Source of the DNA: Urechis unicinctus
Taxonomy: Eukaryota; Annelida; Polychaeta; Xenopneusta; Urechidae
NCBI GenBank assembly: GCA_034190875.2
Contig: CM067354.1
Location: 2,601,539-2,665,538 of the forward strand
Reading direction: 5' to 3'
Length of the DNA: 64,000 nucleotides
Part shown: piece by piece, positions 9,065 to 60,785 of the stretch
Position numbering within the stretch: the stretch's first letter is position 1
Layout of the letters: the number at the start of each line of letters is the position of its first letter
Made by a program: the position numbers and the translations under genes
The notes under the pieces: model-generated
Database searches by the model: none
The model's input: only the letters and a program-made list of their open reading frames with translations
Told to the model about the DNA's origin: nothing

Positions 9065-9093
9065 CTGTTAACAGAGGGCAGTAATAATTAATG

Positions 9094-9936: not shown

Positions 9937-9938
9937 CA

Positions 9939-28972: not shown

Positions 28973-28977
28973 TAAAT
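28973..28977. repeat. Target-site duplication TAAAT (left)
   Basis: TAAAT directly abuts the left TIR and is repeated at 44352-44356. Maverick/Polinton insertions are known to make 5-6 bp duplications. Confidence 0.8.
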
Positions 28978-29253
28978 AGTAGTATAGGGAGTAGCGGTTC
29001 TGGCACACCAGTCTCATATGATTAAGACACCTATCTCATATGGTGCAACCCAGAAAACACACACACACACAGGCTGACTCACATGTGCGAGCGGTACTGG
29101 CACACCTGTCTCATATGATTATGACACACCTATCTCATATGGTGCAACCCAGAAAACACATATATAGGGTGACTCACATGAGCAAGCGAACCGCTCGCAC
29201 CTCCCCCCCACCATATGAGCCCAGCCCTTCCAGCCCCTATGGTATAGGCCCAC
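28978..29253 (+). repeat. Polinton TIR, left arm
   Basis: 276-bp arm matching the reverse complement of 44073-44351 at about 98%, with a few substitutions and length changes in (CA)n and poly-C. An internal ~97-bp direct duplication is present (units start at 29013 and 29110). The inner end is GGTATAGGCCCAC. Confidence 0.95.
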
Positions 29254-29288
29254 TAAAGAGGGCGACAGCAATGTCAACCATCTACAAC

Positions 29289-29474
29289 AGGACTCTGAGG
29301 AATAAGCTCTTCTAAACGACTCACGCGCTCCAAAAGGTCCTCATACTTCGATTCCAATTACCTCACCTTCTCCTCTACACCAGGACCCTGAGGAATAAGC
29401 TCTTCTAAACGACTCACGCGCTCCAAAAGGTCCTCATACTTTGATTCCAAATCCCTCACATCATTCTCAAGGTC
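29289..29474. repeat. 93-bp tandem duplication beside left TIR
   Basis: AGGACTCTGAGGAATAAGCT and its repeat start at 29289 and 29382. The period of 93 bp equals 31 codons of the coiled-coil gene on the minus strand. The outer copy carries the stop codon that ends that ORF. Confidence 0.85.
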
Positions 29475-29546
29475 CACCTTCTCCTCCCATATATGTTCCA
29501 CATCTGCTTGCAGCTCGGCCACCCCAATATGTTCATCGGTGCTCAT
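29358..29546 (-). CDS. Small acidic coiled-coil protein (Polinton)
   Basis: 62-residue ATG-initiated ORF, the last minus-strand gene before the left TIR. Residues 8-52 form a continuous heptad pattern (VAELQADVEHIWEEKVDLEN then LESKYEDLLERVSRLEEL), so it should form a coiled coil, perhaps a dimer. I do not recognise a family. A 93-bp duplication covers its 3' half and gives a TAA in the outer repeat, so the C-terminus may be altered from the ancestral one. It lies 23 bp from the stop of the polymerase gene. The function is unknown; a structural or regulatory role is only a guess. Confidence 0.55.
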   Translation of the reverse strand: MSTDEHIGVAELQADVEHIWEEKVDLENDVRDLESKYEDLLERVSRLEELIPQGPGVEEKVR

Positions 29547-29569
29547 TCTATACCTCAGCTATCATATGT

Positions 29570-32500
29570 TCAACATATCGACTCGTGCCCATAGGCCAGA
29601 GTGTCTACACCACCTGGAGCTATCCACCGCTTTGAGTCAAAGGGGGAGAGAGACACCTTGTTAACGTGGAGCCCATATATTTTATGGCAGTCACTCCTGA
29701 GCATGTTCATTCCGTGGCGAAACTGCTTCTGTTCGAACAGTGACTCCACATACTGAGCGTGTCGTAGATGCTTCTTCACCACCACCTTCTTCACACCCTT
29801 AGCTCTTTTTATCTCGCCCTCATCAGACATCAGGATAGAGTACATCTTAGGGCGCAAACCAACGTACTCCTTGATGGGCACGCCAGCGCACTCATCCTTC
29901 ATCTTACCCAGAACCTTTTTGTTTTTGTCACTGTGTAGGGCATGAGAAGGGTCAAAGTTACTAGTGTCAAAGAGATGCCCATCCTCCCTCATATCAGCAT
30001 AGACGTCAGTGGTACGGATCTCAAGCAGCAGCGAGTCTGTGTTTGTGTAAAGCAGGTTAATATTACTGTCATATCTAGCCTTCATGGTATTGTAGTAAAA
30101 GTCAAGTGCTTGGAGAGGTCCAGAATGCACATGCCAACGTAGACCGGGCGGTTCAGCACTAAGCGAGTCTTGTGCATATGCAGGGCAGCTAGATCATCGT
30201 CAAACACTTTTTGTCGAGCATAGGCGGGGCTGGCCACAAGCCCACGTATTTTTTCTTTTTCCGATGAGCGCACAATCTTAACGTCGACTTGCCTCCGGAG
30301 ATTCTCCATCGTTTTACCAAAGACGGAGTTATTCATAAGTTTATAGAGATCCTTCTCAAAGTCGCTGTTGGCGGCCTTGCGCAGATCTGTATTCATCCTT
30401 ATGTAAGGCTCCATCCATGGACTCTGGTCAAAGACAAGCGCACGATGAATCTTGGTGAGTCTCAACCCCAAAGACAGATATAGCTTGAGGTTCCTGTAGT
30501 GTACCACATACTTCTCCTTGTTCCGCAGGTTGGGCACCAGCTTTTCAACTCCATTTCCGGTGCTCCCCAATGCACCTAGGAGATCTTTCTGGTAGTCTGA
30601 CAACCACTCATTTTGCACAAGAAGCCGCTCCGGCACTAGGGGGTAATCGTTGTGTTCGTCATGAAGCGCAGCAGGATACTCCAAGTCAACCTCAAGTATA
30701 TACCCCGTTTCAGCATCATCGGGATGGTCCTGGATCTCTAGGTTCTCTGGCCGTTCCACCCACTCAATACCCGAAGTAGGTAGGGCTTGGCTCATCGCCC
30801 ACCCATACAGATTGTTGGCATCGAGGTACTGGATATAGCTCGCTGGCTTATCCTGCTCAAAGCCCTCCACGTATGGGTTGTTCGCTTTAGCGTGGCGATG
30901 TGATACCATGCTTATCCCACCGCGCAGCCCCTTCTCAATAAACAGGTACTTGTCATAATCGGTGAGAAGCTCGAGTTTCACCCCTGTGCTCTTAAGAAGC
31001 GCATCCCACGACAAACCGGGGCTGGTATAGTAGTGGGCCGGATCCAACCCGTATTGCTTAAGACAGGTTTTGCGGAATGTTTCAAACACATCGGCCAGGA
31101 GCAGTACATCCGTGCGTAAGTAAAGGTCATGGTAGTCCCCCATGTTTTTACAACCGAACGCATTCCAGACTTTCTGGGCGTGTTCATAGTCTGCAGCAGA
31201 TATACCCTGTTCAGAGAGCTTGCTGTAGAAATCATGGATCGGCGGCAGTGGAGCATCAAACTTATCCCAGCCATCCATGAACTCATAAGGATACACTCCC
31301 TTATGCAGCAGCAAGCGCCGCTTCATCTGGTCTGGCTCGTATTCCTCCGTCACAGCAAAGGCATCTGGGTTGTTAGCAGACACAAGCTTGTCGAGCGAGG
31401 CCAGGAGGAACTGTGCACTGTCAATGAAGCGCAACTGTCCGACAGACAGGGAGATATACTTCTCCATGTTATTTGGGATGCAGTTGATATTGCCCTCCAC
31501 TTTGCTTATACCCTGCATCAAGAGATGGGAGTCGTAGCCCCGCAGGTTATGGAACACCACAGGGATGGGTGTTGTCTTGGGACTCAGCCGAAGTTTCAGG
31601 TTACACACGTTATGGGCTGGCCCTCTGTACAAGCCTGTTATATGGCAGTGATCGCGAACAGAGTCACAGCCCAGTTTTTTCTTGCACACATGACAGTGAG
31701 TTGCAGCCTTATGTGCCCTTCTATCCTCCCGAGTCATCCGCATAGGGACAGGCTTGGACAGAACTGCTTTGATCTTTTGCTCCTCCTGCTGCAGAGCCTG
31801 TAAGAACTTCTCCACAACATCGCTTCCTCTATAAACCACAGGGGGTTGTCTGCCCATCACATCAGACAACCACATAGCCGTAACCACATGGCTCATGCTC
31901 CTGCGTTCTCTGCGTGTTGCTCTTACCAGGATTAGGCGCAGGTCCCGGAAGCTTCACTGTGAGCGCCTCAAAGTCGGCATAGATAAGATAGGGGGCAGCA
32001 AGCTGTTTCTGCCAGTTCTGGAAGGATAATATGTTCTTCCCTTCCTCAGGCATGTCAACTCGCACAGCAGCCTGCCCGATACCCATGCACTCAGGTTTGT
32101 GCGCCAGGAGCAGTTTCTCAGTGGTGTATCCATGCAAGCATCGCTCGCAGAAGAACTTGCGGTGCTCGTACTTACTCTGGTCATACAGCAGGCGGTTCAG
32201 GTCTTCGATCTGCGTGTAATGAAACCTACCGTCCTCCTCAATCAGCATGAGGTTTATACATGGACCAGGCTGTCTGCTGATACGGTGAACGATGGTGACC
32301 TTTCCATCCCAGCCAAAGACATTCAAGCCGCCTACTTTAGCATGTTTTTCTATCTTCTCAATCTGCGAGATAGGTGTTGGATAGTCCACGCCTTTTCCTT
32401 CTAAGAGTCTTAAGAGCGGCTTAATGTTATATTTTGATGGTCGCTGCGGGTTCTTGGCAACCGGGTGCAGAGCCGCTTCAATGGAATATAGAACGCAGTG

Positions 32501-33315
32501 TGGGTCATTTGTGTTTTTTTTACGTTTCTAATTGCCTTCTTTACCGCCAGCTTTCTCGGCAGTTTCAGGTAGGAGCCACCTTTCAATGGCTGGTAGTTGG
32601 CAATATCAATCCACAGAGTTGTGACCGCCTGAAACTCCCAGCCAGAACCTTGGTTGGTCCACTTCTCCAACCGCTCTTGGATATTAGCATTGCACTGGTC
32701 CAGCTCATTGTTAATATCTTCTAGGGAGAGAACCACCTGCTGCTTATTACGCAATACAGGCTCAAAATACTCAGTACTGTCATCATCTGAGTGCTTGGAG
32801 AGTCTTACCTTAAGTGCAAACTGACACTTGATTCCACCTAGCTCTTCCAGCTCACCAGTCAAAACTTTATGCATCTTCCGACGCATGCCCTTAAAGAACA
32901 TCATAAGGTCCGAGCTAAGGGGGTGAGACTCAGGAACGTTCATCACCCATCCACGCAAATAGTTTTTAACAGCCCACTTAGTGTTCTTGAAGGCAAGACG
33001 CGCTGTGGGGACTGGGGACAGGGTTGTGGGGATGCGTGGGGCAGGGACTGGTCTGCGTGGGGCAGCAGTGGGGATGCCTGGGGCAGGGACAGGTCTGCGT
33101 GGGGCAGGGACTGGTCTGCGTGGGGCAGCAGTGGGGACAGGGATGCGTGCCACCCCAGCCTTTAATCTAACAAACATCTCCTTGTATGTACGGTCATATT
33201 CATTACGCTCTTGGAGTGCTTTGAGTGCAACCTTAGAGTGTGGATAAGGAGGCTTAAAACCGTGAATTGAAACATAATCATTTTGGGCTTCACGTGCTCG
33301 CTGATTATGAGTCAT
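29570..33315 (-). pseudogene. POLB: Protein-primed DNA polymerase B (frame-broken)
   Basis: Family B polymerase that would copy the element from its TIRs by protein priming. Four frame segments are collinear: 33315 to about 32520, 32520-31862, 31896-30082 and about 30130-29570. Visible parts: a Pro/Arg-rich N-terminal linker; a C2HC zinc pattern (CERC...HKPEC); exonuclease motifs YADFEAL, FHNLRGYDSHLL and YLRTDVLLLADV; an endonuclease-VII-like zinc knot with DHCH and NVCNL; palm motif A DANNLYGWAMSQ; motif B LMNNSVFGK; and motif C, which here reads YTNTDS. The breaks are one-base slips in an A8 run (32513-32520) and near 31880, and a loss of about 7 bases near 30110 judged against copy 2. The N-terminal 300-residue ORF belongs to this gene. 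Full length would be about 1,230 residues. Inactive as read. Confidence 0.9.
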
Positions 33316-33329
33316 GTTTACTATACAGT

Positions 33330-33342
33330 TCCATTAGTCTAA
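33330..33342 (-). promoter_or_regulatory. Shared 13-bp element upstream of POLB
   Basis: Minus strand TTAGACTAATGGA, 14 bp before the polymerase ATG. The same 13-mer with one change precedes the Cys-rich gene (33824-33836). Candidate early-promoter motif; function inferred. Confidence 0.4.
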
Positions 33343-33491
33343 AAGGGAATTCGTTGATACACAAAAGGCAACAACAATACAGCAAGCGGACTTTGACCTA
33401 TGCAGTAAACACCCGTCTCTGACAAGGTGCCAAGCTTCGTCGCACATAGCCGACAAACCATGTTGTTGACAGCGCCACAAGATTTCTATTT

Positions 33492-33806
33492 TTATACAGT
33501 GGGGAATCCCCGTTCAGTGGCGCCGACTGGCGTGTCAGTGTCCCCAGCCATAGGCCGTTGTGAAACAATTTTTTGGGCAAGACGAAGACGACTGTGGTTG
33601 ACTTTATCGAACCCACAATCCATGCACAATCCTACCTTATTATTTTTTATAGCCTTCTGACAACCCGTACAAAGACGATTAATGACACCATGTTTTATCT
33701 TATATCTGTGTAAGTTACAAAACTCTTGCTCTTGCGTACAGGGCCTGTTACAGGGGACTTTCTTTCCGAGCAATATCCATGGGCACTTATTGTCAAATAC
33801 TACCAT
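33492..33806 (-). CDS. Cys-rich zinc-binding small protein (Polinton)
   Basis: 104-residue ATG-initiated protein between integrase and polymerase. The N-terminus (MVVFDNKCPWILLGKKVPC) carries C8, C19, C23, C30 and H33, followed by a zinc-ribbon pair C46-x2-C49 and C61-x2-C64. A basic, Arg/Lys-rich stretch follows. I recall similar small Cys-rich ORFs as recurrent companions of integrase and PolB in Polintons; their role is not established, and DNA binding or transcription control is a reasonable inference. The ORF is intact. An AT-rich leader with the shared 13-mer lies directly upstream. Confidence 0.7.
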   Translation of the reverse strand: MVVFDNKCPWILLGKKVPCNRPCTQEQEFCNLHRYKIKHGVINRLCTGCQKAIKNNKVGLCMDCGFDKVNHSRLRLAQKIVSQRPMAGDTDTPVGATERGFPTV

Positions 33807-33823
33807 TGTTATATATATAGATA

Positions 33824-33836
33824 TCTATTAGTCTAA
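33824..33836 (-). promoter_or_regulatory. Shared 13-bp element upstream of Cys-rich gene
   Basis: Minus strand TTAGACTAATAGA followed by TATCTATATATATAAC, 17 bp before the ATG at 33806. It overlaps the integrase stop codon. It matches 33330-33342 in 12 of 13 positions. Confidence 0.4.
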
Positions 33837-34828
33837 TTGATAATACCGTCTGGCGGCAACTGGGTATCAGACGGCACCACAAGCAACTCCTCCTTTACAA
33901 AGCCACGAAGAGGTCCATCCAGCAAATAGTATAGTACAGGCTCACCAGATTTAGTGACAGAGCTTCCAATCCGGTAAACATTGAGCGACCACACAGGGTC
34001 AGTGGCCCGCCGCCGGTGGTCTTGCTCTGCCTCACCAGGCTGGTAGAGGTAGCGAACGCCAACATCAGAGGGAAGCTTTTGCTCTTTAACCCCCAGAGGG
34101 CGCCCTGGTACGACTGCAGAGGGCTTTTGTGCAACTCGTTTTGCCTTTATAGCATCTTTAGGTTTTTTTCCAGTCAAGCGGGTCACCTCATTATTTATCG
34201 CAGAGACTACAGCCTGCAGTCGAGAAACCCACTCAGTCGATCGTTTTCCAGTATCCCTTAACTCTACGGCATACTGGTGACCAAAGAGTCGTTCAGCAAG
34301 GGTTCGGTTAAAGTGTTCCACTATACCCTGGTCTCGATGGATATTCACACGGCCACGCCTGACTGATACTCCATGTTTTACTAACAGCTGATTCGCTGCA
34401 CCCATAAACTCCCGTCCGGGGTCCACCTGAAGTAGTTTAGGCCAATGCAGCGGTCCTCGTTTGTATATCCTCTCAAGTGCACCTGCGACCTCCTTAGCCT
34501 CTTTTGTAGTCAATGGCTCAGCCGCTTTGTAGCGCGAGGCCACATCAACCAATGTTAGGGCATACTTGTAAGTCCGGCGCTTCACAACGTCATGAGGAAG
34601 AAATAAGAGATCGGCTTGGTGAATCTCATTGGGGACAGGGACATCAAACTTTGGCCTGGGAATGTGTTTTGGCACTGGCAGGTAGATTTGCCATATAGCT
34701 TGCTTTGTTAGCCACCCCTTGGCAACTTCCTCAGAAACCCTCGCTTCTGTCGCAAGCTTCTTGATAGCAGTAATGCCTTTCCAGTATCCCTTAGGACTAT
34801 AGTAGATCTCTTGCATGCGACGATCCAT
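33833..34828 (-). CDS. INT: RVE-family integrase (Polinton INT)
   Basis: 331-residue intact ORF starting MDRRMQEIYYSPKGYWKGIT. The retroviral-type integrase core spans about residues 58-200. The catalytic triad is visible as D73 (HQADLLFL), D136 (LLQVDPGREF) and E171 (DQGIVEHFNRTLAERLF), with near-DD35E spacing. A C-terminal SH3-like or chromo-like barrel is likely around residues 280-320 (DPVWSLNVYRIG ... GFVKEELLVV). There is no obvious N-terminal HHCC zinc domain, only a helical segment (KKLATEARVSEEVAKGWLTK). The enzyme inserts the element by acting on the TIR ends. A truncated relative is at 58574-59237. Confidence 0.95.
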   Translation of the reverse strand: MDRRMQEIYYSPKGYWKGITAIKKLATEARVSEEVAKGWLTKQAIWQIYLPVPKHIPRPKFDVPVPNEIHQADLLFLPHDVVKRRTYKYALTLVDVASRYKAAEPLTTKEAKEVAGALERIYKRGPLHWPKLLQVDPGREFMGAANQLLVKHGVSVRRGRVNIHRDQGIVEHFNRTLAERLFGHQYAVELRDTGKRSTEWVSRLQAVVSAINNEVTRLTGKKPKDAIKAKRVAQKPSAVVPGRPLGVKEQKLPSDVGVRYLYQPGEAEQDHRRRATDPVWSLNVYRIGSSVTKSGEPVLYYLLDGPLRGFVKEELLVVPSDTQLPPDGIIN

Positions 34829-34858
34829 ATACAGTAAACGTTCGAGTCTCCAAATGAC

Positions 34859-35281
34859 CTACTTAGCAAGCCTGTATGCAACCAGCCCAGTCGCAGCCAT
34901 ACCCAGTATAATGAACGCCACCTCACGCCCCCTCTGTTCATCTGAGGGCTCGTAGAAGTCTGAAAGTTGCGGCTCAGAGCCCAACGGGTCGATGGTTTTA
35001 TTCGTAATCAGGGAGTACTCACGCATAGCCTCGTCCGCATCCCTAAAAGTATGCTCGGCATGTCCCTGGCGGCGTAGTTGCTCATTGATGAAGTCTAAGC
35101 GCTCAGTTCTCTTCTTGGCCCATGCTGCCTGAGCATATTGAAGCTGCTCGATTGCCATATCATGGCGTTTACGTTCCGCGTCCACTTGGCTGCCTCGTAA
35201 TTTAGAGAATAAAAAGTTGCTCCCAGAGAATGCAAGGGCGTTAACAAGAGCACCCCCCACAAGTAGCGCGAGTGTGGCCAT
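34859..35281 (-). CDS. Coiled-coil protein with terminal membrane segments (Polinton)
   Basis: 140-residue ORF. Residues 2-24 are hydrophobic (MATLALLVGGALVNALAF), residues 30-80 are a charged helix rich in Gln, Glu, Arg and Lys (KKRTERLDFINEQLRRQGHA), and residues 122-138 are a second hydrophobic stretch (VAFIILGMAATGLVAYRL). The order suggests a membrane-anchored helical hairpin. I recall related proteins in invertebrate Polintons, always near the integrase, with no known function; a virion-membrane or minor virion role is inferred. Its ATG overlaps the stop of the upstream small gene (TAATG), a sign of tight coupling. Intact; a decayed copy is at 59260-59667. Confidence 0.75.
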   Translation of the reverse strand: MATLALLVGGALVNALAFSGSNFLFSKLRGSQVDAERKRHDMAIEQLQYAQAAWAKKRTERLDFINEQLRRQGHAEHTFRDADEAMREYSLITNKTIDPLGSEPQLSDFYEPSDEQRGREVAFIILGMAATGLVAYRLAK

Positions 35282-35519
35282 TACTTCAGTATATCAACTG
35301 GTAAGATTCCTTGTTTAATTAGCATATCCTTTGTGGCCATAGCTAGTGATACATCGACAACAGCCATAGCCAGGTCCCGTGGGGTGAAATCAAGACGTGG
35401 CACCCCCCCACCCAGAGCCATCTTAGCAAGCTTGGCATAGCCTATTGAAATACTGGAAACACTACACCGTGGTACAGAGCGTTTACGAGCATTTTTCCAT
35501 CAGTAATTGGTGTTGTCAT
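35281..35519 (-). pseudogene. Small conserved Polinton protein (one-base break)
   Basis: About 79-residue gene starting MTTPITDGKMLVNALY and ending FTPRDLAMAVVDVSLAMATK plus DMLIKQGILPVDILK. One base is missing around 35455-35475, which puts a TAG after VFPVFQ; copy 2 (59667-59863) reads through this region in frame. The protein has a Gly-rich hinge (ALGGG) and two amphipathic helices. Its stop overlaps the start of the next gene. Function unknown; conserved in gene order between the two copies. Confidence 0.7.
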
Positions 35520-35520
35520 C

Positions 35521-35899
35521 TTATTCCATATAAAACGGATCCTTTAAATGAGCGTCTGGAGGCTTTTGTACCACAACCTGTTTAGGGTGTGAGGCTACCA
35601 TCTGGTGCCTGTAGCAATACAATGCCAACACGCCAACACCACCGACAACTAAAGGCACAGCCCATGTTGGCCACGTCCACCTTTCCATAGGTTTGCTCGT
35701 TGATATTGGCTCGACAGCTTCGTCTCTACCATCCGCAAGCGCTGCCTTAGCCTCTCGGAGCTCTCTCAGAAGCTTATTTTGATTGGCTTTTCGAGCTGCA
35801 GCACCCTTTTCGTCCCTGCCGCAACCCTTTTAGCGTTTTTGTCACTGACGTTATCTCCACCGGTGTTGTCTCCCCTTGATTCGTGTTCGTTTCTTCCAT
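35521..35899 (-). pseudogene. Single-pass membrane coiled-coil protein (one-base break)
   Basis: ATG at 35899 opens a Thr-rich N-terminus (MEETNTNQGETTPVEITSVT). After a one-base slip near 35815 the frame continues through a heptad-like helix (ARKANQNKLLRELREAKAAL), a linker, one transmembrane helix (WAVPLVVGGVGVLALYC) and a basic tail ending HLKDPFYME. Total about 125 residues. It looks like a tail-anchored or single-pass protein. In copy 2 the helix has grown by a 21-bp (7-residue) repeat. No family name is known to me. Confidence 0.7.
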
Positions 35900-36016
35900 G
35901 TTTACTTACTAAATTTATTTGTCCAATTGACAGCTCTTAATAAGCACCTGTTATAGCGGAGTTAAGCACATGCTATAGCGGAGTTAAGCACATGCTGTAT
36001 CAGAGTTAAACACATA

Positions 36017-36462
36017 CTATAGCAAGGAAGTGGTGTCTTCCTCTCCACCGGCCCCTGTTGTTTCGGTGCTTGTTTTTCCAAATTGACAGTGCTTAACTGT
36101 TGTTAAAGCCGCAGTTAAGGGAGCTAAAAACATACCATAGTGATGATATAGCTCACAAGTGGCAGTGCTTAGCGCGTGTCCAACAAACGGGTCCGTCTCG
36201 AGGTCAGTAATTAGCCTTGGCTGGTGTTCTGGTGGGATTGGTAGAAACATACAAGCAATACCTGAGTACAGCTGTAGCAGTGTCTGACCTAGAGTACGTG
36301 TCATGCTGGCACCTAGCCGAGCCTCGTATTTCACATACAGCTTTATGATCTCTTCATCAGACATTGATTCAACCTGGTCAATTGTAAGGCGCTTCAAACC
36401 AAGGTACTGACGGCCTGACCGCCAGCTATGACGGCAACAAGCCTATCTCTCTTAGAAGACAT
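36017..36462 (-). pseudogene. Conserved Polinton protein, ~147 aa (one-base break)
   Basis: The likely start is MSSKRDRLVAVIAGGQAV at 36462. The frame slips by one base near 36405-36415 and continues as KRLTIDQVESMSDEEIIKLY through a hydrophobic middle (QLYSGIACMFLPIP) to a Thr/Glu-rich end. The intact part alone has no ATG at its beginning (TTG at 36397), which supports the longer model; copy 2 at 60385-60781 shows the same continuity over the junction (EYLGDQRLTIDQVE). The family is unnamed; probable virion-associated or membrane-active protein by gene position. Confidence 0.65.
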
Positions 36463-36481
36463 ATCTACACTGGGTGTGCAA

Positions 36482-36682
36482 CTAGGTTCCGCTCCCCCAG
36501 ACTTTGTCTCTGCTAGTCGAGTCCTGTTCAAGGAGTTTATCAATAATGGTATCAGGATCCATGAATATACGTATACGCCTTCGAGCTTCAAAATACTGCA
36601 CCGCTACCCAGATGAAGAACCCTAAATTGATTACTGAGGCAGCGGCTGCTATCAAGGCCAATATCACTTCAATCGACGGCAT
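36482..36682 (-). CDS. Small single-pass membrane protein (Polinton)
   Basis: 66-residue ORF, MPSIEVILALIAAAASVINL followed by GFFIWVAVQYFEARRRIRIF: one N-terminal transmembrane helix and a basic cytoplasmic-type stretch. Its ATG lies inside the last codons of the ATPase gene (14-bp overlap). The C-terminus may run on in another frame into the next gene, so the stop could be secondary. Function unknown. Confidence 0.6.
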   Translation of the reverse strand: MPSIEVILALIAAAASVINLGFFIWVAVQYFEARRRIRIFMDPDTIIDKLLEQDSTSRDKVWGSGT

Positions 36683-37319
36683 ATGCAGTAGGCTGATCAG
36701 TCTTCAGCAGCAGTTTTGTGTGCTTGGTCTTTGCTAGTAGTTGGCGTACTGTGGCTCGTTCCTCCTTTGTTGGAATTACATCATTTTCACGTAAGGCGTC
36801 TTCAAACGAGTCACAGTCCTTGGTGTGAAAGAGCACCATCCAGCGAGTCTGCTCACGTAAGTCCTTCAGCACAGAGTTGTACTTTTGGGTGAGGACCCAG
36901 ACACTTTGCTGCGCATGGCGGCCGCTAAAGGCCAGTTCGGATAACATGTCTTTCTTCTTGGTTAGGGCCTTTGTTGCCGAACAGTCATCAATAATGTACA
37001 GGTTTGGCTCGCCCTTAAAACAATGGTAGAAAGCCCTCAGGTGGTCATGGAGCCGCTCCCCTGGATCAACCACGTACACCTCTGAATCATCCCACACCCA
37101 TGACCGCGTCTGATAGGCCTCGTTGAAACGTATGGTAGGGCAGAGGATTACAATATGCTCGAAGGCACCAAAGAAGGGCCCTTCAAGTAGGTCGAGGATG
37201 AATGCGGTTTTCCCACATCCTGTCTGCCCACAAACAATTGCCGAACAGGGACCATCTGGAAATGTAAACTTAGTAGACTGCGCTGACGAACCTGCCATCT
37301 TTAATGTTAAGCTGTGCAT
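36669..37319 (-). CDS. ATP: Genome-packaging ATPase (Polinton ATP)
   Basis: 216-residue P-loop ATPase of the FtsK/HerA packaging type (A32-like) that would pump element DNA into capsids. The Walker A motif is GQTGCGKTAF (about residues 31-40), Walker B is LYIIDDCSA (about 107-115), and a sensor-like QQSVWVLTQKY lies near 137-147. The second Met (MAGSSAQSTKF, residue 8) is an equally good start. The 5' end overlaps the capsid gene's 3' end by 29-50 bp, and its 3' end overlaps the next small gene, so the block is read as a compact array. Intact. Confidence 0.93.
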   Translation of the reverse strand: MHSLTLKMAGSSAQSTKFTFPDGPCSAIVCGQTGCGKTAFILDLLEGPFFGAFEHIVILCPTIRFNEAYQTRSWVWDDSEVYVVDPGERLHDHLRAFYHCFKGEPNLYIIDDCSATKALTKKKDMLSELAFSGRHAQQSVWVLTQKYNSVLKDLREQTRWMVLFHTKDCDSFEDALRENDVIPTKEERATVRQLLAKTKHTKLLLKTDQPTAYAVD

Positions 37320-38565
37320 CCATTACAATATACATATAAACGTTCAATGTGCCCGCCGCCTCTGCCTTTTTTGTGATCTGTATGGTGATGCCCTCAGACG
37401 CATTCTCCACAGCCCTGCCACTACCGTGCAGCTGGTCGTCATCACTCGTCCTTAAGTCGAGCCACAGAGCATACTTGGTGGTTAGGTACTCTCCTAGGGA
37501 AACGTCTGACAATGACAGGTCTTTTAATGCTATTGCTACACTGGGGTCTCGTTTACTCGTTGCTGCACAGGCCTTCTTCACCTCGTCCCACTGCTGGTAG
37601 CCACGCATGCCCTGGGCATAGAGCTGATTGGGGATGCCCTCAATGGTCACCTCGACCTTCGTTATCTTTGGGTTGTAGAACGACTCTGTTTTCCTGGCGT
37701 ATGAGGCGTTGGTCGGGTCTTCAAAGAGCAGTAGGATGCCCTTCATGCTGCGAGCCGGCACGTTCAGGTTGATGTTCCACAGTGTATCTCTTTTATTGTA
37801 TACAAGCTTCCTGTGACGAAGCACACGGTCATACAGAATCGAGAGCCGACTTGTGTACTGTGTGCGTATCATGCGGGCCAACTCTGTGTGGGTAACCATG
37901 TCATACTCCAGCGAGATGCCATCAATTTTGTAGCTTGCAGCGGTGTCGCCTGTTGCGTGAATCACGCGGTTGTAGTCGTTGAATGTGAGCTCGTATTCCA
38001 GTCTGTCACTAAGCACACTTTGGTAGAATGGCATGTGGCTCTCGAGGAGTTCAAAATCAAGTGGAACGTAGAACCTGTTACCATACACATCGGCTACGGC
38101 CTTGTCCTCTTCCTCGGTATCAACCTTGTCTCCTGGCCCCACTCGTATCTTAGTTGCGTTTCTGTCATCTGATGTGTCAATGCCCTGATACTGGAGGCCC
38201 TGTCTCTCCTGTGCAGTCCGCCACAAGTCGTGGTAACAGTGGTACACATCGCTGTCATCAATAGACATGACCTCATTGCCAGAAATCTTGATTGTAAATT
38301 TTTTAACCACGGCGCGGCCCAGGTTTTGCACAACGCTGCGGTTAACATCAGTCGATGTCAGCGTGATTGTAAAGGACAGCCGTGCTGTCCCTGAAACAAT
38401 GACGTCGTCTGCGCCTAGATTGGGGAAGCGAACCAGCAGTTGTTGGTTCTGGTCAATAGTGCTTGGATTGTTTGTAACGCATACAGATTGTCGCACGGCC
38501 TTTACCACAAGGGGTTCGCGTATCCGGCGGTGTGGGTTTAGTTTGCGTCCGTAAGTACTCGTCAT
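37270..38565 (-). CDS. MCP: Major capsid protein, double jelly-roll (Polinton MCP)
   Basis: 431-residue intact ORF with a basic N-terminus (MTSTYGRKLNPHRRIREPLV) followed by beta-rich sequence. Landmark segments are LLVRFPNLGADDVIVSGTA, GRAVVKKFTIKISGNEVMSI, FYVPLDFELLESHMPFYQS and LEYELTFNDYNRVI, which I recognise as the Polinton major capsid protein, assigned in the literature to the double jelly-roll fold of adenovirus/PRD1-type capsids. It should form the trimeric capsomers. It is the first gene of the left minus-strand block, 40 bp from the divergent plus-strand gene. The C-terminus overlaps the ATPase start. A truncated paralogue is at 61030-61735. Confidence 0.93.
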   Translation of the reverse strand: MTSTYGRKLNPHRRIREPLVVKAVRQSVCVTNNPSTIDQNQQLLVRFPNLGADDVIVSGTARLSFTITLTSTDVNRSVVQNLGRAVVKKFTIKISGNEVMSIDDSDVYHCYHDLWRTAQERQGLQYQGIDTSDDRNATKIRVGPGDKVDTEEEDKAVADVYGNRFYVPLDFELLESHMPFYQSVLSDRLEYELTFNDYNRVIHATGDTAASYKIDGISLEYDMVTHTELARMIRTQYTSRLSILYDRVLRHRKLVYNKRDTLWNINLNVPARSMKGILLLFEDPTNASYARKTESFYNPKITKVEVTIEGIPNQLYAQGMRGYQQWDEVKKACAATSKRDPSVAIALKDLSLSDVSLGEYLTTKYALWLDLRTSDDDQLHGSGRAVENASEGITIQITKKAEAAGTLNVYMYIVMDAQLNIKDGRFVSAVY

Positions 38566-38605
38566 GTTGAATGTTTAATTACAATTATATCTTTAACACA
38601 CAGAC
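38566..38605. promoter_or_regulatory. Divergent AT-rich promoter region
   Basis: 40 bp between the MCP ATG (minus) and the ATG of the plus-strand coiled-coil gene. AT-rich, with TTTAATTACAATTATATC in the centre. It must hold start signals for both sides if they are separate transcripts; inferred. Confidence 0.45.
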
Positions 38606-40175
38606 ATGGAGTTTGATAACCCAGCATTTGACGACCCAGAGGAGGAGGGGGAGTGGGAGAGGAATGACACTAACTTTGATGATGAGGAGACTCTCCCAGA
38701 GGCCACTCTCCCACCTGTTACAGAAGGGGACATTGGGATGGATAGGTCTATACCACCGGAAGGCCGACTCGTTATAGGCGCTGTCAATGATTATTACGAT
38801 GCATTAGCTGAAAAAGGCCACACACCCTCCCTCGGCCGCGATTATACAAAGTTTGAACTTGTTAGAGGACAGTTACGTTTTAAGGACTACCCTGACTTAA
38901 GTATTACAAATTATCGTACTAAAGCCCCGCTTTCACTTGGAACAATAGGTAAAAGTAGAGGGGGGGGCTAAGGTTGTCCGTGATGGTTTGGGGTTCACTG
39001 AGTGGTCCTCACAAGTGGTGTCACAAAAGGAAGCAACAGCCCTCCAAGGCGTTGACCAAGCAGCTGCTAAAGCCGCAGAGAAATTAGAAATGAGGGGCCC
39101 TGAAGCCGTGACAGAGCAAGGTGGTGTGGAAGAAACAAGCTTCATAGAGGACGTTCATAACACCATCCAAGACCTAGGTACACAAACAGACAACGAACTA
39201 CCCCTCAGAGAGCTTATAGGGCTTGATAAGGCTATGCAGACCCAGAGGGGTGAGCTGGTCAACAACCTAGCTAAGATAACTGAGTTAGAAAGGGATATAA
39301 AACAGCGGGAAGCTAAAATGGCAAGCCTGGAGGAGGAAGGGAGGGGTGATAGTCGAGCATGGAGATTCCAAGCAAATGAGCTTGCAGAGCTGCAGGACCT
39401 GCGGAGTGCCCGTATTGAGGCTGCCTCTGAAAACCGTAACCGTCTAAGGACCCAAATTAACCGCATCAGGGAAACGATCAACAGACTTCTTAACGAGGAC
39501 ACAACACTAGCTGAGCGTGTACGCACTCTGTTCCGAGAGCAGGGTATAACAATCGCCTCCATACTCACTGCGATTGGATTGGCAATCTCGACCCTTGTAG
39601 TTGCTTTGACGGGCGGAGGGAGCACTAGTCCAACCCCGGCACCAACGCCGACACCAGCTGATAAGCCCGGTGTAAAGGAATGGATTAAAAAACAGCTGAA
39701 CTCCTTGGCAAACGTCCTGAAGGGCCTAGCCGGTAAGGCAGCAGCTGCCCTTCCAGGAATCATTGGCTCCATCGTATCATGGCTGCTTACGTCAGCTGCA
39801 AAGGTAGCTGGTTGGATGGCAGAACATGTATGGGGCGCAGTTGTGGCGGTGGGAGGAGTTATCCTCCTGATACTCCGTGACTTACTACGTAGCAAACCAA
39901 AGCACAGCTATGCCTATAGCGATTCCGCCTACAATAAGAGCGGTTTTCTCATCCTCGTGCGCCCCACGCAGACCGGTCTCGGTCATAGGGGCGGGCCCTG
40001 GAGAGGAGAGTTCCATATCTGTATCTGTATCTGGCGGAGGGTCAAAGCTTCCTCTATCTGGAACAACCGGAACCGCGTTGACATCAGTATTGCTGCCGAT
40101 CTGCTGCTCCTCAGTTGCGATAGTAATCAGATTGTTGTACCCAGCAACGTCTCCAATGGCGAGGCTCATATCTGA
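38606..40175 (+). pseudogene. Long coiled-coil/membrane protein of the Polinton (frame-broken)
   Basis: ATG at 38606 starts an acidic N-terminus (MEFDNPAFDDPEEEGEWERN) and a conserved block GDIGMDRSIPPEGRLVIGAV followed by NDYYDALAEKG. The frame slips in a G8 run (38960-38967) and continues from about 38970. Then come a long coiled coil (about 39100-39540), a hydrophobic segment GITIASILTAIGLAISTLVV, a TPTP linker, WIKKQLNSLANVLKGLAGKA and a C-terminal membrane segment (GAVVAVGGVILLILRDLL). The natural end is probably near 39900; the remaining frame to 40175 runs antisense through the convergent gene and looks like read-through. Likely a virion or membrane structural protein; no tested function known to me. 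Confidence 0.75.
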
Positions 40176-41176
40176 TGGAGCCATGTACAGGCCCGTTCCA
40201 AACACATAATCAACCTTTGAAGAGGCATTCTGGAGGACGTTCTGATACCGTCGGATAGATGAAGGAATATCCACTGGGTAGTTGATGGCATCCTCAACGT
40301 TGACCTTAAATTGCTTTTGGGCATCAAATGACGTTCCAACACCTAGTATATCTGAGCGGGTCTGCGCCTGAGCACTAAGAATGGCCCAGACATAGGTCCG
40401 AATGCTGTCGTTGATCCGTGAGATACCTGGGGATGTGAACCCCTCCGATTTTTCCAGGATGAAGGTGCTCCAGGCAATGTTTGCCCACTCTTGGTCTTGC
40501 TTTATGAAATCAATGTGCAGCTTGCCGCCCTGGAAAACAAAGCCGTTGGTTGATTTCTCAAAGGTTTGCCTTACGGATTCGTAGTTGTTGTGGTCTCCGT
40601 AATGAAAGATCACCCGTACCTTGTGTGTTTCGGGGTCGGTGAAGTAGATCCGCCCTAAGCCCTGGTTGCCGCCCTGCATCCTCCAGTCGCTGTTTTCGTC
40701 AACCCCAAACTCGTGGCAGAGCCAGTGGTAGATTCTCTTGTCGAAGGAATTGTTGGTAGCCGACCACGTGGCGTCATCTGGCAGTGCTATTCTCATTTCG
40801 TCTAAAAGTCTCTGGATGGTGTAGTAGACGTGGAACCTGTAGAGGTTACTTAGTGCTGGGGAGTCAGATCTGAGGTGTTCCAGGGCAGAAACTCCGCAGC
40901 CACTGGTTGCGCACCATACAACAAAGTTTACCTGGTTCTGCCAGTATTGCATGTGGTTGGTTCTCTCCAGCCAACTACAAGGCTGTCGTCGCTTATGTTT
41001 GGCACCACGTATTTATCAAACAGGTTGGAGAACTCTACACCAAACGCATCTGTGATATTATCCGATTTTACCTGGATGAGGAGATGTGTCAGATCCTCGC
41101 GGGCAATATGGGGTAGGTATACCGGCCCGGTTTTGTACCTTTTATTCGTATTGAATGTAAAGGCTTGTTTATTCAT
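39885..41176 (-). pseudogene. Conserved Polinton protein with C-terminal membrane anchor (one break)
   Basis: Start MNKQAFTFNTNKRYKTGPVY at 41176. One frame slip occurs near 40945-40955, and the sequence then continues WQNQVNFVVWCATSGCGVSA. Strongly conserved-looking stretches include LEKSEGFTSPGISRINDSIR, TYVWAILSAQAQTRSDILG and FGTGLYMAPSDMS. A Pro/Asp-rich linker leads to EDEKTALIVGGIAIGIAVLW, a C-terminal transmembrane helix. Total about 430 residues. I recall this protein as a regular Polinton component in invertebrates; its role is unknown to me (virion assembly or membrane protein is inferred). It is the only minus-strand gene in the right third and starts 6 bp from the plus-strand minor capsid gene. 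Confidence 0.75.
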
Positions 41177-41182
41177 AGTGCT
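41177..41182. promoter_or_regulatory. 6-bp spacer between divergent ATGs
   Basis: CAT|AGTGCT|ATG: the minus-strand ATG (41174-41176) and plus-strand ATG (41183-41185) are separated by six bases. Promoters and 5' leaders must therefore overlap the opposite coding sequence. Confidence 0.6.
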
Positions 41183-41869
41183 ATGTATCACACTCTGTCA
41201 AATGTTCAAAGCGGCGGCGCTGTGTCCCTGCAAAAACCTATTGACAACACTGCGGGCGATCTATGTGTTGGCCTAAGGTCAATCACGTATACTGTGGGCT
41301 GGTACAATCTAGAATCAGACGAGAGCATTGCATGGCGGTCAAGGAATTCAGAAGAGAGAGGATATGCTGCATTAAAACCAGGCCTCTGGAGCTTAAGCCT
41401 TCTTCAGGAGCATATTACACCATTAGGTATCGGTTTGGAGGTTGATGCTGTAAATGGGGTTATTACCCTAACAGTTCCAGACAATGTGGGTGCGCACATA
41501 ACAGGCGGAGTGTTAACAATGTTGGGTCTTGACGGCCTCAGTGGGGGGTGGATACCTTCAGGTACTTACATAGGTGACCGGCCCATCAACTTTAGCATCT
41601 TTAACACAATTTATGTTCACCTCGATAAAGTCAGTACCACACACAACATGCTAGATGGTGCGCCCACTACGCTTCTTGAAGTTGTTGGCTTAGAGGGTGG
41701 CTCTTTCGGTGATATTATAACCACGAACATCGCTAATCCTGTCTGTAAGCGTGTCACTAGTGGAACAGTGCATGAGTTAAAGGTTCAGTTACGCGATAAT
41801 AAAGGAAGGCTATTAGATAACCACGACTTACCTGTTAGCGTTGTTCTTAAATTTACAAGATGTCAATAA
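41183..41869 (+). CDS. Candidate minor capsid (penton-like) protein
   Basis: 228 residues from ATG at 41183 (an upstream TTG frame extension is ignored). Beta-rich throughout: MYHTLSNVQSGGAVSLQKPI, LRSITYTVGWYNL, a central GVITLTVPDNVGAHITGGVL and a C-terminal ELKVQLRDNKGRLLDNHDLP then VSVVLKFT. This organisation is compatible with a single jelly-roll minor capsid protein, the expected partner of the double-jelly-roll MCP at five-fold vertices; the assignment is by composition, position and memory of related Polinton proteins, so a fibre-base role is also possible. Its stop overlaps the next ATG (ATGTCAATAA). Intact. Confidence 0.55.
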   Translation: MYHTLSNVQSGGAVSLQKPIDNTAGDLCVGLRSITYTVGWYNLESDESIAWRSRNSEERGYAALKPGLWSLSLLQEHITPLGIGLEVDAVNGVITLTVPDNVGAHITGGVLTMLGLDGLSGGWIPSGTYIGDRPINFSIFNTIYVHLDKVSTTHNMLDGAPTTLLEVVGLEGGSFGDIITTNIANPVCKRVTSGTVHELKVQLRDNKGRLLDNHDLPVSVVLKFTRCQ

Positions 41870-42524
41870 AAACGAGTATTTATGGACCTAGGCAAAAACC
41901 GTCAGACACTGTTCAGGGCGCCGACCTCTCGGAATATGCCACAAAGACCTATGTATCTATTGGTGACTCAAAAAAATGGATAAAAGTGGCGGTACTATGA
42001 CTGGAGACCTTGAAATGGGAGATAATAAATCGTTGAGTTGGGAGACCCGACTTCACCGAAGGATGCTGTTCATAAAAAGTATATTGATGCTGAATATAGA
42101 CAGCAGAACAGGTACCTGAGACGATACGTAGATGAAAAGACGAAACCACTCATTACTATATGGGCAGAAGCAAGTGGCCCCTCTTCGCAGAGGATATGAG
42201 TGGTCGTTTGGCCATGGGGCTAGGGGTCGAGACTCACAAGACTCAAGCTGTGGATATACCATGTTATGTAATGGCAAGATCATTCGTATGGGGTTGTCTT
42301 CGGGTGTTGGTGCTGATGCTGGTCCTATATCAGTCGTTCCTGTTATTAATGGAACGAATCAAGTGGTAGGAATAAGTAAGCCTGCTAACCAACGGGCTGT
42401 TGTAATAACTTTAGACCAGTCTTTACAGCTAGAACAAGGCAACATTATTAACTTTTATACAACCACACAAAACAGAGGGGCGACTTGGTCTGTAGCTTCA
42501 CTCCTAATTGAACTTGATATATAG
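41860..42524 (+). pseudogene. Fibre-like protein with phage-type tail repeat (frame-broken)
   Basis: The start MSIKTSIYGPRQKPSDTVQG overlaps the stop of the upstream gene. The frame then slips in an A7 run (41970-41976), again near 42025-42040, and near 42185. Across these frames one sees a GGTMTGDLEMGDN-type segment followed by a DPTSPKDAVHKKYIDA-type segment, the pattern of phage tail-fibre repeats, then a coiled region (QQNRYLRRYVDEKTKP) and a beta-rich C-terminal knob ending WSVASLLIELDI. The likely role is receptor binding or a vertex spike. Broken as read. Confidence 0.7.
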
Positions 42525-42545
42525 ACTTATGTATACAAAGACAGT

Positions 42546-43100
42546 ATGAAACAACAACCAACGACTGCACCGTTAAATCCAGAGCCTCCTCTATGTGGTC
42601 TGGGGCACTCCTATCGGCTGAATGAGATCAGTCTTAAGAAGCAATACCTTGAGAAAGAAATTGAAAAATATGGTGCTATGTACAAAAAATATAGGTGTGC
42701 AGTAAACTCAGTGGACGCTGTAGACACTGCTTTAGTTGCTGTGGGTATGTGTCTTGGCGCAAGTGGTGTAGGTGTAATGTCTACAATAGTTGCCATTCCT
42801 ATTGCCACAGTGTTGGGTGCTACTGGAGCCGCATGTGGGCTACTTGTAATTGCTGGAAAATTCATCAGTAGGCGGCTGACCATTAAGTTAAAAAAGCATG
42901 ACAAGATCCGCGTTCTCGCTCAGAGCAAATTGAATACCATTGCTGACATTGTATCGGCGGCGCTTGAAGATGGGTATATCTCAGATGATGAGTTTAAGCT
43001 CGTTTCGGTCGAGATCATTAAATATAGTCAAATGAAAAATGACATTAAAGCAAAATGTTTGAAAGCGGCAGAATCGCCCCCTAGACCTGCTAAGGTATGA
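42546..43100 (+). CDS. Two-helix membrane protein with flanking coiled coils (Polinton)
   Basis: 184-residue intact ORF. A charged N-terminal helix (LKKQYLEKEIEKYGAMYKKY) precedes two hydrophobic helices separated by a short turn (LVAVGMCLGASGVGVMSTIV and IPIATVLGATGAACGLLVIA). A basic segment (SRRLTIKLKKHDKIRVLAQS) and a C-terminal helix (DGYISDDEFKLVSVEIIKY) follow. The same layout is familiar from other invertebrate Polintons; no function is established to my knowledge. It sits between the fibre and exonuclease genes. Confidence 0.75.
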   Translation: MKQQPTTAPLNPEPPLCGLGHSYRLNEISLKKQYLEKEIEKYGAMYKKYRCAVNSVDAVDTALVAVGMCLGASGVGVMSTIVAIPIATVLGATGAACGLLVIAGKFISRRLTIKLKKHDKIRVLAQSKLNTIADIVSAALEDGYISDDEFKLVSVEIIKYSQMKNDIKAKCLKAAESPPRPAKV

Positions 43101-43140
43101 CCCTGACAGTCCATTTGAAGTGTGGGGGTTGCTAGATATA

Positions 43141-44064
43141 ATGGAGGCGGCGATAAAATCTTTCTGCAACGATCATACTGGAGTCAAACAAAATACGGAC
43201 CAGTGGGAGACCATGAGGAAGGGCTGCGTTGGAGGAAGTGACTACTCCTCTATCATAGGGCAAAACTACTTCAGCAGCTATAGCAAGAAGCTGACAGAAA
43301 AAACTAGCAACGGGGGGGGTGTTCGCTTTAGCGCACCCTGCCTCTTTTTTGAGGAGGTTGCAATTGCGGTATTGGAGAAGGTGTACGACACCAAGGTCTA
43401 CGGAAATAATATCTATATTGATGGCGGCGCGACGGCCTACTCTCCGGATGGCTTTTGTGTGCTCCCAATCCGGCAGGCTGGAGTGGATGCTGTCTGTCTG
43501 GGGCATCCTGAGGAGGTTGTACTGCTCGAGATAAAGTGCCCCTACACTCGGAGTCCTGGGAGGGTGATTCCGAATATGTATAAGCCTCAGGTTCTGTTGG
43601 GGTTGCACCACAGTCCGGTGGCGACCATCGGGGTGTTTGTCGACTGCGTTTTCAGGTTGTGCTCCTTTGAGGACCTGGGGAAAGCTGAGACGTATAACCA
43701 GGTGTATCACAAGGATCAGAAGAAGTATAAGGAGACGGTGGCTTGGGGGTGGGCGGGGGTGGAGGGGCTTGAAGACGGCGACTATAGTGCGAACGGGAGA
43801 TTTAATAGTTGCCTGGGCTTGGAACAGGAGCATCACGGTCCTTGGTTGGGAAGACCGAGTGGGACCACAGAGAGGCCGACGGGGGCTTTCTACTGTTGGA
43901 AGCTCTTTACGATGAGATTGATAACCGCTCGTCCTGATCCCGACTTTATCGAGAAGAACGACGCTAAGGTTGCCCAGTTTATACAGGACCTCAACCGCGT
44001 GAAAAATGGAACTTACAGCGACGGTCGCAGATATTTATCACTCAATAACCTCTACGGTGACTAA
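43141..44064 (+). CDS. YqaJ/lambda-type alkaline exonuclease (Polinton)
   Basis: 307 residues from ATG at 43141 (the longer frame begins with GTG at 43120). PD-(D/E)XK nuclease signature: GCVGGSDYSSIIG (28-40) resembles the YqaJ substrate-entry motif, D103 (YSPDGFC), E130-x-K132 (LLEIKCPY) and the downstream YKPQ (147-150) complete the active site. Such enzymes make 3' single-stranded tails for recombination or resolve replication ends, so the role is probably in element DNA processing. The stop lies 8 bp before the right TIR. Intact. Confidence 0.88.
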   Translation: MEAAIKSFCNDHTGVKQNTDQWETMRKGCVGGSDYSSIIGQNYFSSYSKKLTEKTSNGGGVRFSAPCLFFEEVAIAVLEKVYDTKVYGNNIYIDGGATAYSPDGFCVLPIRQAGVDAVCLGHPEEVVLLEIKCPYTRSPGRVIPNMYKPQVLLGLHHSPVATIGVFVDCVFRLCSFEDLGKAETYNQVYHKDQKKYKETVAWGWAGVEGLEDGDYSANGRFNSCLGLEQEHHGPWLGRPSGTTERPTGAFYCWKLFTMRLITARPDPDFIEKNDAKVAQFIQDLNRVKNGTYSDGRRYLSLNNLYGD

Positions 44065-44072
44065 CTACTGGT

Positions 44073-44351
44073 GTGGGCCTATACCATAGGGGCTGGAAGG
44101 GCTGGGCTCATATGGTGGGGGGGGGAGGTGCGAGCGGTTCGCTGGCTCATGTGAGTCACCCTGTATATGTGTTTTCTGGGTTGCACCATATGAGATAGGT
44201 GTGTCATAATCATATGAGACAGGTGTGCCAGTACCGCTCGCACATGTGAGTCAGCCTGTGTGTGTGTGTGTTTTTCTGGGTTGCACCATATGAGATAGGT
44301 GTCTTAATCATATGATACTGGTGTGCCAGAACCGCTACTCCCTATACTACT
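44073..44351 (-). repeat. Polinton TIR, right arm
   Basis: 279-bp inverted copy of 28978-29253, with the same ~97-bp internal duplication and the (TG)n tract. The outermost bases are CCCTATACTACT. Confidence 0.95.
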
Positions 44352-44356
44352 TAAAT
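44352..44356. repeat. Target-site duplication TAAAT (right)
   Basis: Direct repeat of 28973-28977, immediately outside the right TIR. Confidence 0.8.
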
Positions 44357-46590: not shown

Positions 46591-47299
46591 TTAATCATAA
46601 ACAAATCGCCCTTCTTCTGGTACATTTCCACGTTTATCCGGCCGTCCATTTATGATAAGGCTCATCAAGATTTGTGAGCCCGGGTCAATGGAGGTAGCTT
46701 CACGGATTTCATTAATTCTCTGATCGGGTAACTTCATGGTCTCTATGGTAAGAATTTGTGTGTTTTGGATCTCAAGATAGGCACGGCTCAGTGTATCTGC
46801 TAAGGGGAGTTTCTCTCTTTTTATCCACTGGAAATCAAAATTGTAACGAAATAGTTTCATCATGAGCGCTTGAACACGTATTGTGGCTTGACTGAGGGGC
46901 TTACTCAGTATGCTTTCCAGTAGTTTGTGATCGTTACGGATGATCACCTTGCGTCCGTTAGTGTACTGGTGGAATTTCTCTGAACCGAATACCACTGCTA
47001 AGGTCTCCTTCTAATGTTGGGGGCCAGTTCTTCTCGTTGTTTCTCAGATTGTGGGAGGCATACTCAATTGGCTGTCCTTCCTGGAGAAGAACTGCTCCTA
47101 TTCTTTTTTTCTGAAGAGTCAACTTGTAAAACCAACGCTTTTGCAGGGTCGTAGCAAACGAGCACCGGTGTGCAGAAAGTTTGTTTTTGAGCCGCAGGAA
47201 TGAGTTCTCACATTCCTCTGACCGAATGAATTTCTCATCCTTCCTTGGCTCAAGGTCATCCGCAAGGTTTGGGGTGAAGCGAGCTAGGTACAGGATCAT
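46591..47299 (-). pseudogene. Gypsy RNase H fragment
   Basis: Two frames: RFTPNLADDLEP through GAVLLQEGQPIEYASHNLRN, then FHQYTNGRKVIIRNDHKLLE and FDFQWIKREKLPLADTLSRA. These are the conserved tether, HNDHK and ADTLSR motifs of Gypsy RNase H (an N replaces the usual T/S before DHK). Confidence 0.8.
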
Positions 47300-47311
47300 G
47301 CCACAGAGTCA

Positions 47312-47923
47312 TCATGCTCTAGATGCATCTTCAGGTGCTGGCATATCTTTAATTGTGCATACCTTCTCTGCAATGGCCTTTATACCATCTTTTGTTACAG
47401 TGTGAGCAAGGAACTCGATCTCAGTTTTTCTCAGCCACATTTTCTCAGTGTTGAGCATTATTTTCTTGCCTTTACATCTTTCCAATAAGTGTTTCAAGTT
47501 GTGCTCATGGTCTTTCATGGCCTCATTATGTGTGTCACCACAGCCAAACACAACGAAATCATCCGTGAAACATATGATACCATGTAAGTCATGCAAAGCT
47601 TTATGAAGGCGCTTCTGGAATATCTCCTCATCAAGTCGCACGTGCCAAAAAGCTTCCTTCACATCGAGCTTACTTAAAACATTTGCATTCAAAAGTTTTG
47701 GCATTAAAGCCTTGTTGAGAGGTTGAGGGTCAATGCATATGCATATGTCTTTGTTAGCCTTGCTGGTTGCTACCATCTGCGAAACTGTTGGATCTAACAC
47801 AAGGGTTACCTCTCCCAAGTCACCAAGACCCGTCACAGATACTGATGAAACAAATTGCCCTTCATTGACGGTTACCAGTCCCATCTTCCGGCATGTTTCA
47901 ACACCTAGTATGAAAAACAACAA
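47312..47923 (-). pseudogene. Gypsy reverse transcriptase fragment
   Basis: RT fingers and palm: ICIDPQPLNKAL, LSKLDVKEAFWHVRLDE and the catalytic FTDDFVVFG (FxDD). The segment between them is shortened: after RLDEEIFQKRLHKALHDLHG the usual RLPFG block is missing, so the domain is internally deleted. Confidence 0.8.
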
Positions 47924-48015
47924 ACTTTACCATGCAGATTTCTTTTGACAGTGGATTCCAAAACAGGCAGTTCAGTTTCACCAAGTGTCTTCTGCTGTCC
48001 ATGGTTCCACATATT

Positions 48016-53500: not shown

Positions 53501-54245
53501 TGACTGTACTAGTAAACGGGTCAATTGTAGTAGTCTAAGTGACTGTACTAGTAAACGGGTCAATTGTAGTAGTCTAAGTGACTGTACTAGTAAACGGGTC
53601 AATTGTAGTAGTCTAAGTGACTGTACTAGTAAACGGGTCAAATGTAGTAGTCTAAGTGACTGTACTGTACTCAGTCTAAGTGACGGGTAAACAATTGTAG
53701 TAGTCTAAGTGACTGTACTAGTAAACGGGTCAATTGTAGTAGTCTAAGTGACTGTACTAGTAAACGGGTCAATTGTAGTAGTCTAAGTGACTGTACTAGT
53801 AACGGGTAAACGGGTCAAAAACGTAGTAGTAGTCTAAGTGACTGTACTAGTAAACGGGTCAATTGTAGTAGTCTAAGTGACTGTACTAGTAAACGGGTCA
53901 ATTGTAGTAGTCTAAGTGACTGTACTAGTAAACGGGTCAATTGTAGTAGTCTAAGTGACTGTACTAGTAAACGGGTCAATTGTAGTAGTCTAAGTGACTG
54001 TACTAGTAAACGGGTCAATTGTAGTAGTCTAAGTGACTGTACTAGTAAACGGGTCAATTGTAGTAGTCTAAGTGACTGTACTAGTAAACGGGTCAATTGT
54101 AGTAGTAGTCTAAGTGAAGTGTACTAGTAAACGGGTCAATTGTAGTAGTCTAAGTGACTGTACTAGTAAACGGGTCAAATGTAGTAGTCTAAGTGAATGT
54201 ACTAGTAAACGGGTCAAATGTAGTAGTCTAAGTGACTGTATTTGT
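50525..54245. repeat. 39-bp satellite array, ~95 copies
   Basis: Units GTAGTAGTCTAAGTGACTGT plus ACTAGTAAACGGGTCAAAT, with recurrent AAT/ATT and GACTG/GAATG variants and occasional truncated or fused units. Units abut directly. Because 39 = 3 x 13, long open frames appear on both strands (13-residue repeats such as VQSLRLLQLTRLL); they are not genes. Confidence 0.97.
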
Positions 54246-58572: not shown

Positions 58573-58573
58573 T

Positions 58574-59237: not shown

Positions 59238-59259
59238 ATCAAGCAAACACTCAAGTCTC

Positions 59260-59863: not shown

Positions 59864-59864
59864 C

Positions 59865-60320: not shown

Positions 60321-60384
60321 TTAAAGGCGTTTCTTGTAGTGCTATGGTCACTCACTGGTCAAATGACGTATTGACGTTAAGCAT

Positions 60385-60781: not shown

Positions 60782-60785
60782 GTGG

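Follow-up and report, generated by a model that had tools for sequence, protein, structure and literature searches.

A defective Polinton/Maverick-type element and its large family in the genome of Urechis unicinctus

Structure and gene content of the element

The 64,000-nucleotide stretch of the Urechis unicinctus genome analysed here (contig CM067354.1, positions 2,601,539 to 2,665,538; hereafter the window) carries a Polinton/Maverick-type element at window positions 28978-44351. Its length of 15,374 bp and its terminal inverted repeats (TIRs) of about 277 bp agree with the 15-20 kb and the long TIRs of such elements. With a probability of about 0.85, it belongs to a large family, inserted recently and has since become defective. 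The left TIR (28978-29253), which begins with AGTAGTATAGGG and holds a repeated unit of about 97 bp, matches the right TIR (44073-44351) in three blocks that are 99-100% complementary, and the aligned arms differ by 3 substitutions and 2 small indels across 276 compared sites. The termini, AGTAGTATAG, have the form AGTAGT...ACTACT, i.e. they show the terminal AGT repeat of Polintons, with (AGT)2 adjoining the target-site duplication. This 5-bp duplication, TAAAT, lies directly outside both ends (28973-28977 and 44352-44356); the chance of an exact 5-mer match between random places of the window is 0.0012.

The ends of other copies in the same genome have the same organization. Ten end pairs were fetched, five of which were usable with both ends; four gave no pair at all, and in one (L037/L038) the alignment started only at an AT-repeat (9/197), so that this pair was dropped. 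Together with the window copy, 6/6 copies have flanks that agree in exactly 5 bases (TAAAT, CAAGC, CAAGA, AGTTT, ACCGG and GCCGG). The five other copies carry the AGT end motif, one of them with (AGT)4 at one end; the motif itself was used to locate these ends, and separate TIR alignments agree. Their TIR arms differ at 6/280, 6/715, 3/165, 6/174 and 6/734 sites. Two copies (L039/L040 and L047/L048) have TIRs of more than 700 bp versus the usual length of about 280 bp. The TIRs are unlikely to stem from an assembly duplication, as the arms differ, abut the target-site duplication exactly and recur in five copies with other duplications.

Pfam matches above cut-off were obtained for DNA_pol_B_2, rve, Pox_A32 and YqaJ. 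The DNA polymerase B (PolB) gene (29570-33315, minus strand) consists of four open reading frames (ORFs; 32410-33315, 31862-32389, 30082-31896 and 29570-30130), the third of which contains DNA_pol_B_2 (E 6.7e-18 in the broken gene) and a weak endonuclease-VII-like match. The intact integrase gene (33833-34828, minus; 331 aa) matches rve (PF00665, E 3e-8) and has candidate D, D and E residues in this order, the second D and the E being spaced by 35 residues. An intact FtsK/A32-like packaging ATPase gene (36669-37319, minus; Pox_A32, E 3.4e-11) overlaps the end of the intact gene for a 431-aa protein (37270-38565, minus), which is probably the major capsid protein: Capsid_N is found at E <= 0.01 in 19/27 members of the capsid set (best E 2.2e-4), and one homolog among the matches listed is named "Major capsid protein" in UniRef. 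In the foreign homolog P0099, capsid and ATPase share one 643-aa frame. The intact 234-aa minor capsid protein (41165-41869, plus) is identified as a single jelly-roll penton by the fold match of its AlphaFold2 model (pLDDT 84) to the mavirus penton (E 1.1e-8), and a 314-aa nuclease of the YqaJ/lambda-exonuclease family is encoded at 43120-44064 (plus).

The remaining genes bring our count to about 16. On the minus strand, a small coiled-coil ORF (29281-29546) contains a 93-bp (31-codon) tandem repeat at 29281-29466, which encodes a duplicated coiled-coil-like stretch of 31 residues with an in-frame stop between the repeats. Further ORFs on this strand encode a Cys-rich protein of 104 aa (33492-33806; the Pfam scan gave no match), a 140-aa protein (34859-35281) and a 126-aa protein (36017-36397); by our reading of the frames, the two small genes at 35281-35905 are both broken. 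The gene that we call u430 (39885-41191, minus; about 430 aa) has a C-terminal membrane-type helix and one frame change (ORFs 40928-41191 and 39885-40952). The plus strand carries a coiled-coil membrane gene with one frame change (38606-39894), a fibre-like gene that we read as broken across three frames (41860-42524) and a membrane-type ORF of 184 aa (42546-43100).

Several results weigh against this reading, among them some of the selection tests reported below. The duplication measures 5 bp in place of the 6 bp of Polintons. The Capsid_N score of the window capsid protein stays below the Pfam cut-off, and a comparison with PDB sequences gave no meaningful match; its double jelly-roll fold is putative. 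No adenain/Ulp1-type cysteine protease was matched in 18 ORFs or in 6 pieces of 35284-36102, a scan outside short gaps such as 41870-42131; a divergent protease may be present. The element is Polinton-type in anatomy, and presumably in mechanism as well. Its 5-bp duplication marks it as a variant, as may the lack of a protease. Judging from the gene families, PolB would replicate the linear DNA in a protein-primed manner, the integrase of the rve type would insert it with a 5-bp stagger, and the A32-like ATPase would package it into a shell of capsid protein and penton. Most copies would decay freely once inserted, and the lineages that spread would retain selection on at least some of their proteins and recombine with distant relatives.

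A preliminary description of this DNA had proposed a Polinton with long TIRs, a direct TAAAT duplication and about 16 genes, and is borne out in these points; it had named TIR assembly duplication as a possible refutation, which is unlikely as shown above. Its gene set stands for PolB, integrase, ATPase and YqaJ by Pfam and for the penton by fold, with the capsid assignment falling below the Capsid_N cut-off.

Coding state of the copy and its family

Compared with homologs or genome copies, the frames for integrase, ATPase, capsid protein and penton have their full length; the nuclease and membrane genes are open ORFs. PolB is fragmented into four ORFs and five further genes are disrupted, by our reading with at least 10 breaks in total: one each in the coiled-coil membrane gene, u430 and the two small genes, and at least 3 in the fibre gene. 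When 10 random breaks were simulated over 14.1 kb, a mean of 9.4/16 genes stayed intact; 10 are observed (>=10: P = 0.475), counting as intact the small coiled-coil ORF near the left end with its in-frame stop. Since this number matches the random expectation, it gives no sign of selection on the window copy. In this simulation all five key genes survive together with P = 0.02, which hints weakly at selection. The TIR divergence of about 1% suggests a recent insertion, as had been proposed, and the copy is probably young; at the same divergence, about 76 substitutions (16-222) are expected in 14 kb. With PolB in four pieces and five other genes broken, the window copy is defective and is not by itself a working virus. 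The element is thus near-complete in structure, not in coding capacity. The earlier view of a possibly virion-forming lineage does not apply to the window copy alone, and the intact genes that had encouraged it are as many as chance would leave. In short, the preliminary annotation was correct but ordinary and its reading of intactness over-hopeful; the family is more interesting than the copy.

Further copies, whose search had been recommended, were found in the host genome (1.19 Gb, 926 contigs; counts include the window's own copy). There are at least 121 integrase copies at 96-100% identity (25 with in-frame stops by our count), at least 97 capsid copies at 94-100% (stops occur in 20 and are absent from 77/97, a share biased by selection of the copies for similarity), at least 150 penton copies at 92-100% and at least 73 scored PolB copies at 96-100%; behind each listing stand 5982-10736 first-look candidates. 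PolB frames open over more than 1,200 codons without internal stop occur in 8/73 copies among the matches listed, and copies fuller than that of the window are therefore present elsewhere in the genome. At 100 random 500-bp points, drawn from contigs C1-C17 minus the far ends of C9, C15 and C17, the element was matched at 3 (81-88% identity; 1141 bases out of 50,000); the reversed element, used as control, was matched at 0. Extrapolation yields 2.3% of bases, i.e. about 27 Mb or about 1,800 element-equivalents, with a 95% range from 3/100 points of 7-101 Mb (about 480-6,600 element-equivalents).

Variation among copies was analysed by codon position. The 8 best integrase copies, including that of the window, diverge by 1.0%, with 35/33/217 changes at the three codon positions in 28 pairs; integrase copies spread more widely (19/20, one of other length being dropped) differ by 2.05%, with 41/32/48 private and 7/2/15 shared variants. 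As the integrase and capsid sets were chosen by protein similarity, their third-position excess is biased, and genes neighbouring the selected ones were used for the selection test instead. At the 8 integrase loci, 20/28 variants of the 140-aa gene fall on third positions (P = 4e-5). No third-position excess was seen in the Cys-rich gene (8 loci, 7/16), the membrane gene (8/10 loci, 9/26), the 126-aa gene (27/30 loci, 18/55) or the ATPase gene at 30 capsid loci (27/117, which is below one third with P = 0.018 and unexplained). Hence, the case for selection among young copies comes from one gene of five, and most of the observed variation is free decay. A deeper comparison is offered by a second, degraded Polinton copy in the window (57191-61730, minus), which is collinear, has large internal deletions, gave no TIR match with blastn and differs from the element by 13-22% substitutions depending on the block. 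Between the two, the silent bias is strong in PolB (third positions 183/441 vs 102/881 at others) and modest in integrase plus capsid (90/448 vs 118/902); the 140-aa, 126-aa and ATPase genes together show none (42/315 vs 86/637, P = 1.0). The PolB part of the second copy seems to differ in history from its integrase and capsid parts.

The u430 module and alternative explanations

The u430 protein has 855 homologs at E <= 0.001. Source contigs of the listed capsid and u430 matches coincide (by size) nine times versus 0.97 expected, and the two genes thus seem to travel together. The model of the full-length homolog P0149 shows a confident core and a C-terminal helix; a comparison with known folds found no match. 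The window locus was compared with the nine penton loci ranking next, ten in all, by identity per 100-bp bin. Mean DNA identity of the window to the nine copies is 93-99% at 39700-40399 and 94-100% at 41200-42299; beyond about 42300 it drops in some copies, which are different or rearranged there. Inside u430, a diverged module with sharp borders (40475-41149, minus) interrupts this similarity: at 40480-41140 the window has 49% DNA identity to the nine copies, which are mutually 94-100% identical. At the protein level, eight of the nine copies share 43-46% identity with the N-terminal part of the window u430, in alignments of 134-141 residues; the ninth, which has a broken frame, shares 58% in 48 residues, and the best-matching of the 120 foreign homologs listed shares 52%. 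For the C-terminal part, identity is 88-93% with the nine copies and 63% with the best foreign homolog listed. The u430 stop-to-stop frame spans 423-447 codons in 7/9 copies and 402 in one, and is broken in one.

From these alignments, the natural reading would be that the module came by recombination with a distant lineage; it may have a surface or host-facing role. By analogy with viral receptor-binding or host-facing domains, one may picture a still-spreading, capsid-coding Polinton of about a thousand copies, with a 5-bp integrase stagger and a u430 N-terminal module that is swapped between lineages. We put this picture forward tentatively and consider it doubtful on balance, since selection among young copies is seen in one gene of five. 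It is also unlikely that the odd segment reflects a chimeric assembly or a single event without exchange between spreading elements. The window-type module is indeed carried by 1/10 penton loci, that of the window; however, the segment is homologous, collinear and of nearly the same length in the same gene, and its frame continues into the 3' part of u430.

Two other alternatives concern the virus-like genes. A view of the capsid genes as mere passengers of a family that spreads purely as a transposon and no longer makes virions is favoured by the ATPase variants of the 30 copies, which show no third-position excess. We think this view unlikely, because the capsid homologs listed, 120 in number, share 67-78% identity and many lie on other assemblies, which suggests long-term constraint, and because 77/97 of the capsid copies listed are stop-free, though picked for similarity. 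It is very improbable that the copy is truly an intact, live provirus in which errors of sequencing or assembly mimic frame breaks. Two of the five breaks with examined surroundings sit in 8-base mononucleotide runs and one fibre-gene break in a 7-base run, but the remaining examined breaks lie outside them, and in PolB one break corresponds to a gap relative to the second copy. Moreover, about 10 indels accompany the roughly 76 substitutions predicted per 14 kb, which is a usual ratio. Frameshifting indels in other copies (10 in the ATPase gene at the 30 capsid loci, 5 in the 126-aa gene) fit errors and decay alike. A defective copy of a large family is the reading that we retain.

Relation to known elements and other features of the window

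Vertebrate Mavericks are described as 12.7-24.6 kb long, with TIRs of 46-1447 bp and (AGT)2//(ACT)2 ends; they encode a protease, are flanked by 6-bp duplications and mostly occur in few copies (PMC8097293). The Urechis element resembles them in size, TIR length, AGT/ACT ends, PolB, integrase, ATPase and capsid genes, and differs in its 5-bp duplication, in the protease, which was not recognised, and in its about 480-6,600 element-equivalents. With the Polintons described as Polintoviruses, of which 74% had an identifiable protease (PMC4028283), it shares capsid protein, penton and packaging ATPase; in contrast to them, it has a YqaJ nuclease and no recognised protease. Adintoviruses are delimited by hexons that BLASTp recognises reciprocally and by a PolB with an OTU domain. 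Like meldviruses and adintoviruses, the Urechis element joins PolB and integrase to virion genes of varied origin, and it seems to share their mixing of modules between lineages (PMC11071296); unlike in these, the diverged stretch lies within a single gene of otherwise near-identical copies. A burst of many copies is also known from the snail Potamopyrgus antipodarum, where a 13-kb Maverick reached hundreds of copies and about 3.5 Mb (PMC12596079), whereas the Urechis family is estimated, with a wide range, at about 27 Mb.

The recognition of capsid genes in animal Polintons raised the question, still open, of whether these elements make virions. In the Urechis genome, with many young copies and fuller ones beside broken ones, selection can be compared on capsid and transposition genes. 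Module exchange between distant lineages, if true, would mean that two elements met in one cell. The u430 protein, which is conserved and has a confident core model without fold match, is a good target for a virion- or entry-type function yet to be defined.

Elsewhere in the window, degraded ORFs at 46591-47926 and 54802-55443 are presumably retroelement-like, and a 3.7-kb tandem array with a 39-bp unit occupies 50542-54248.
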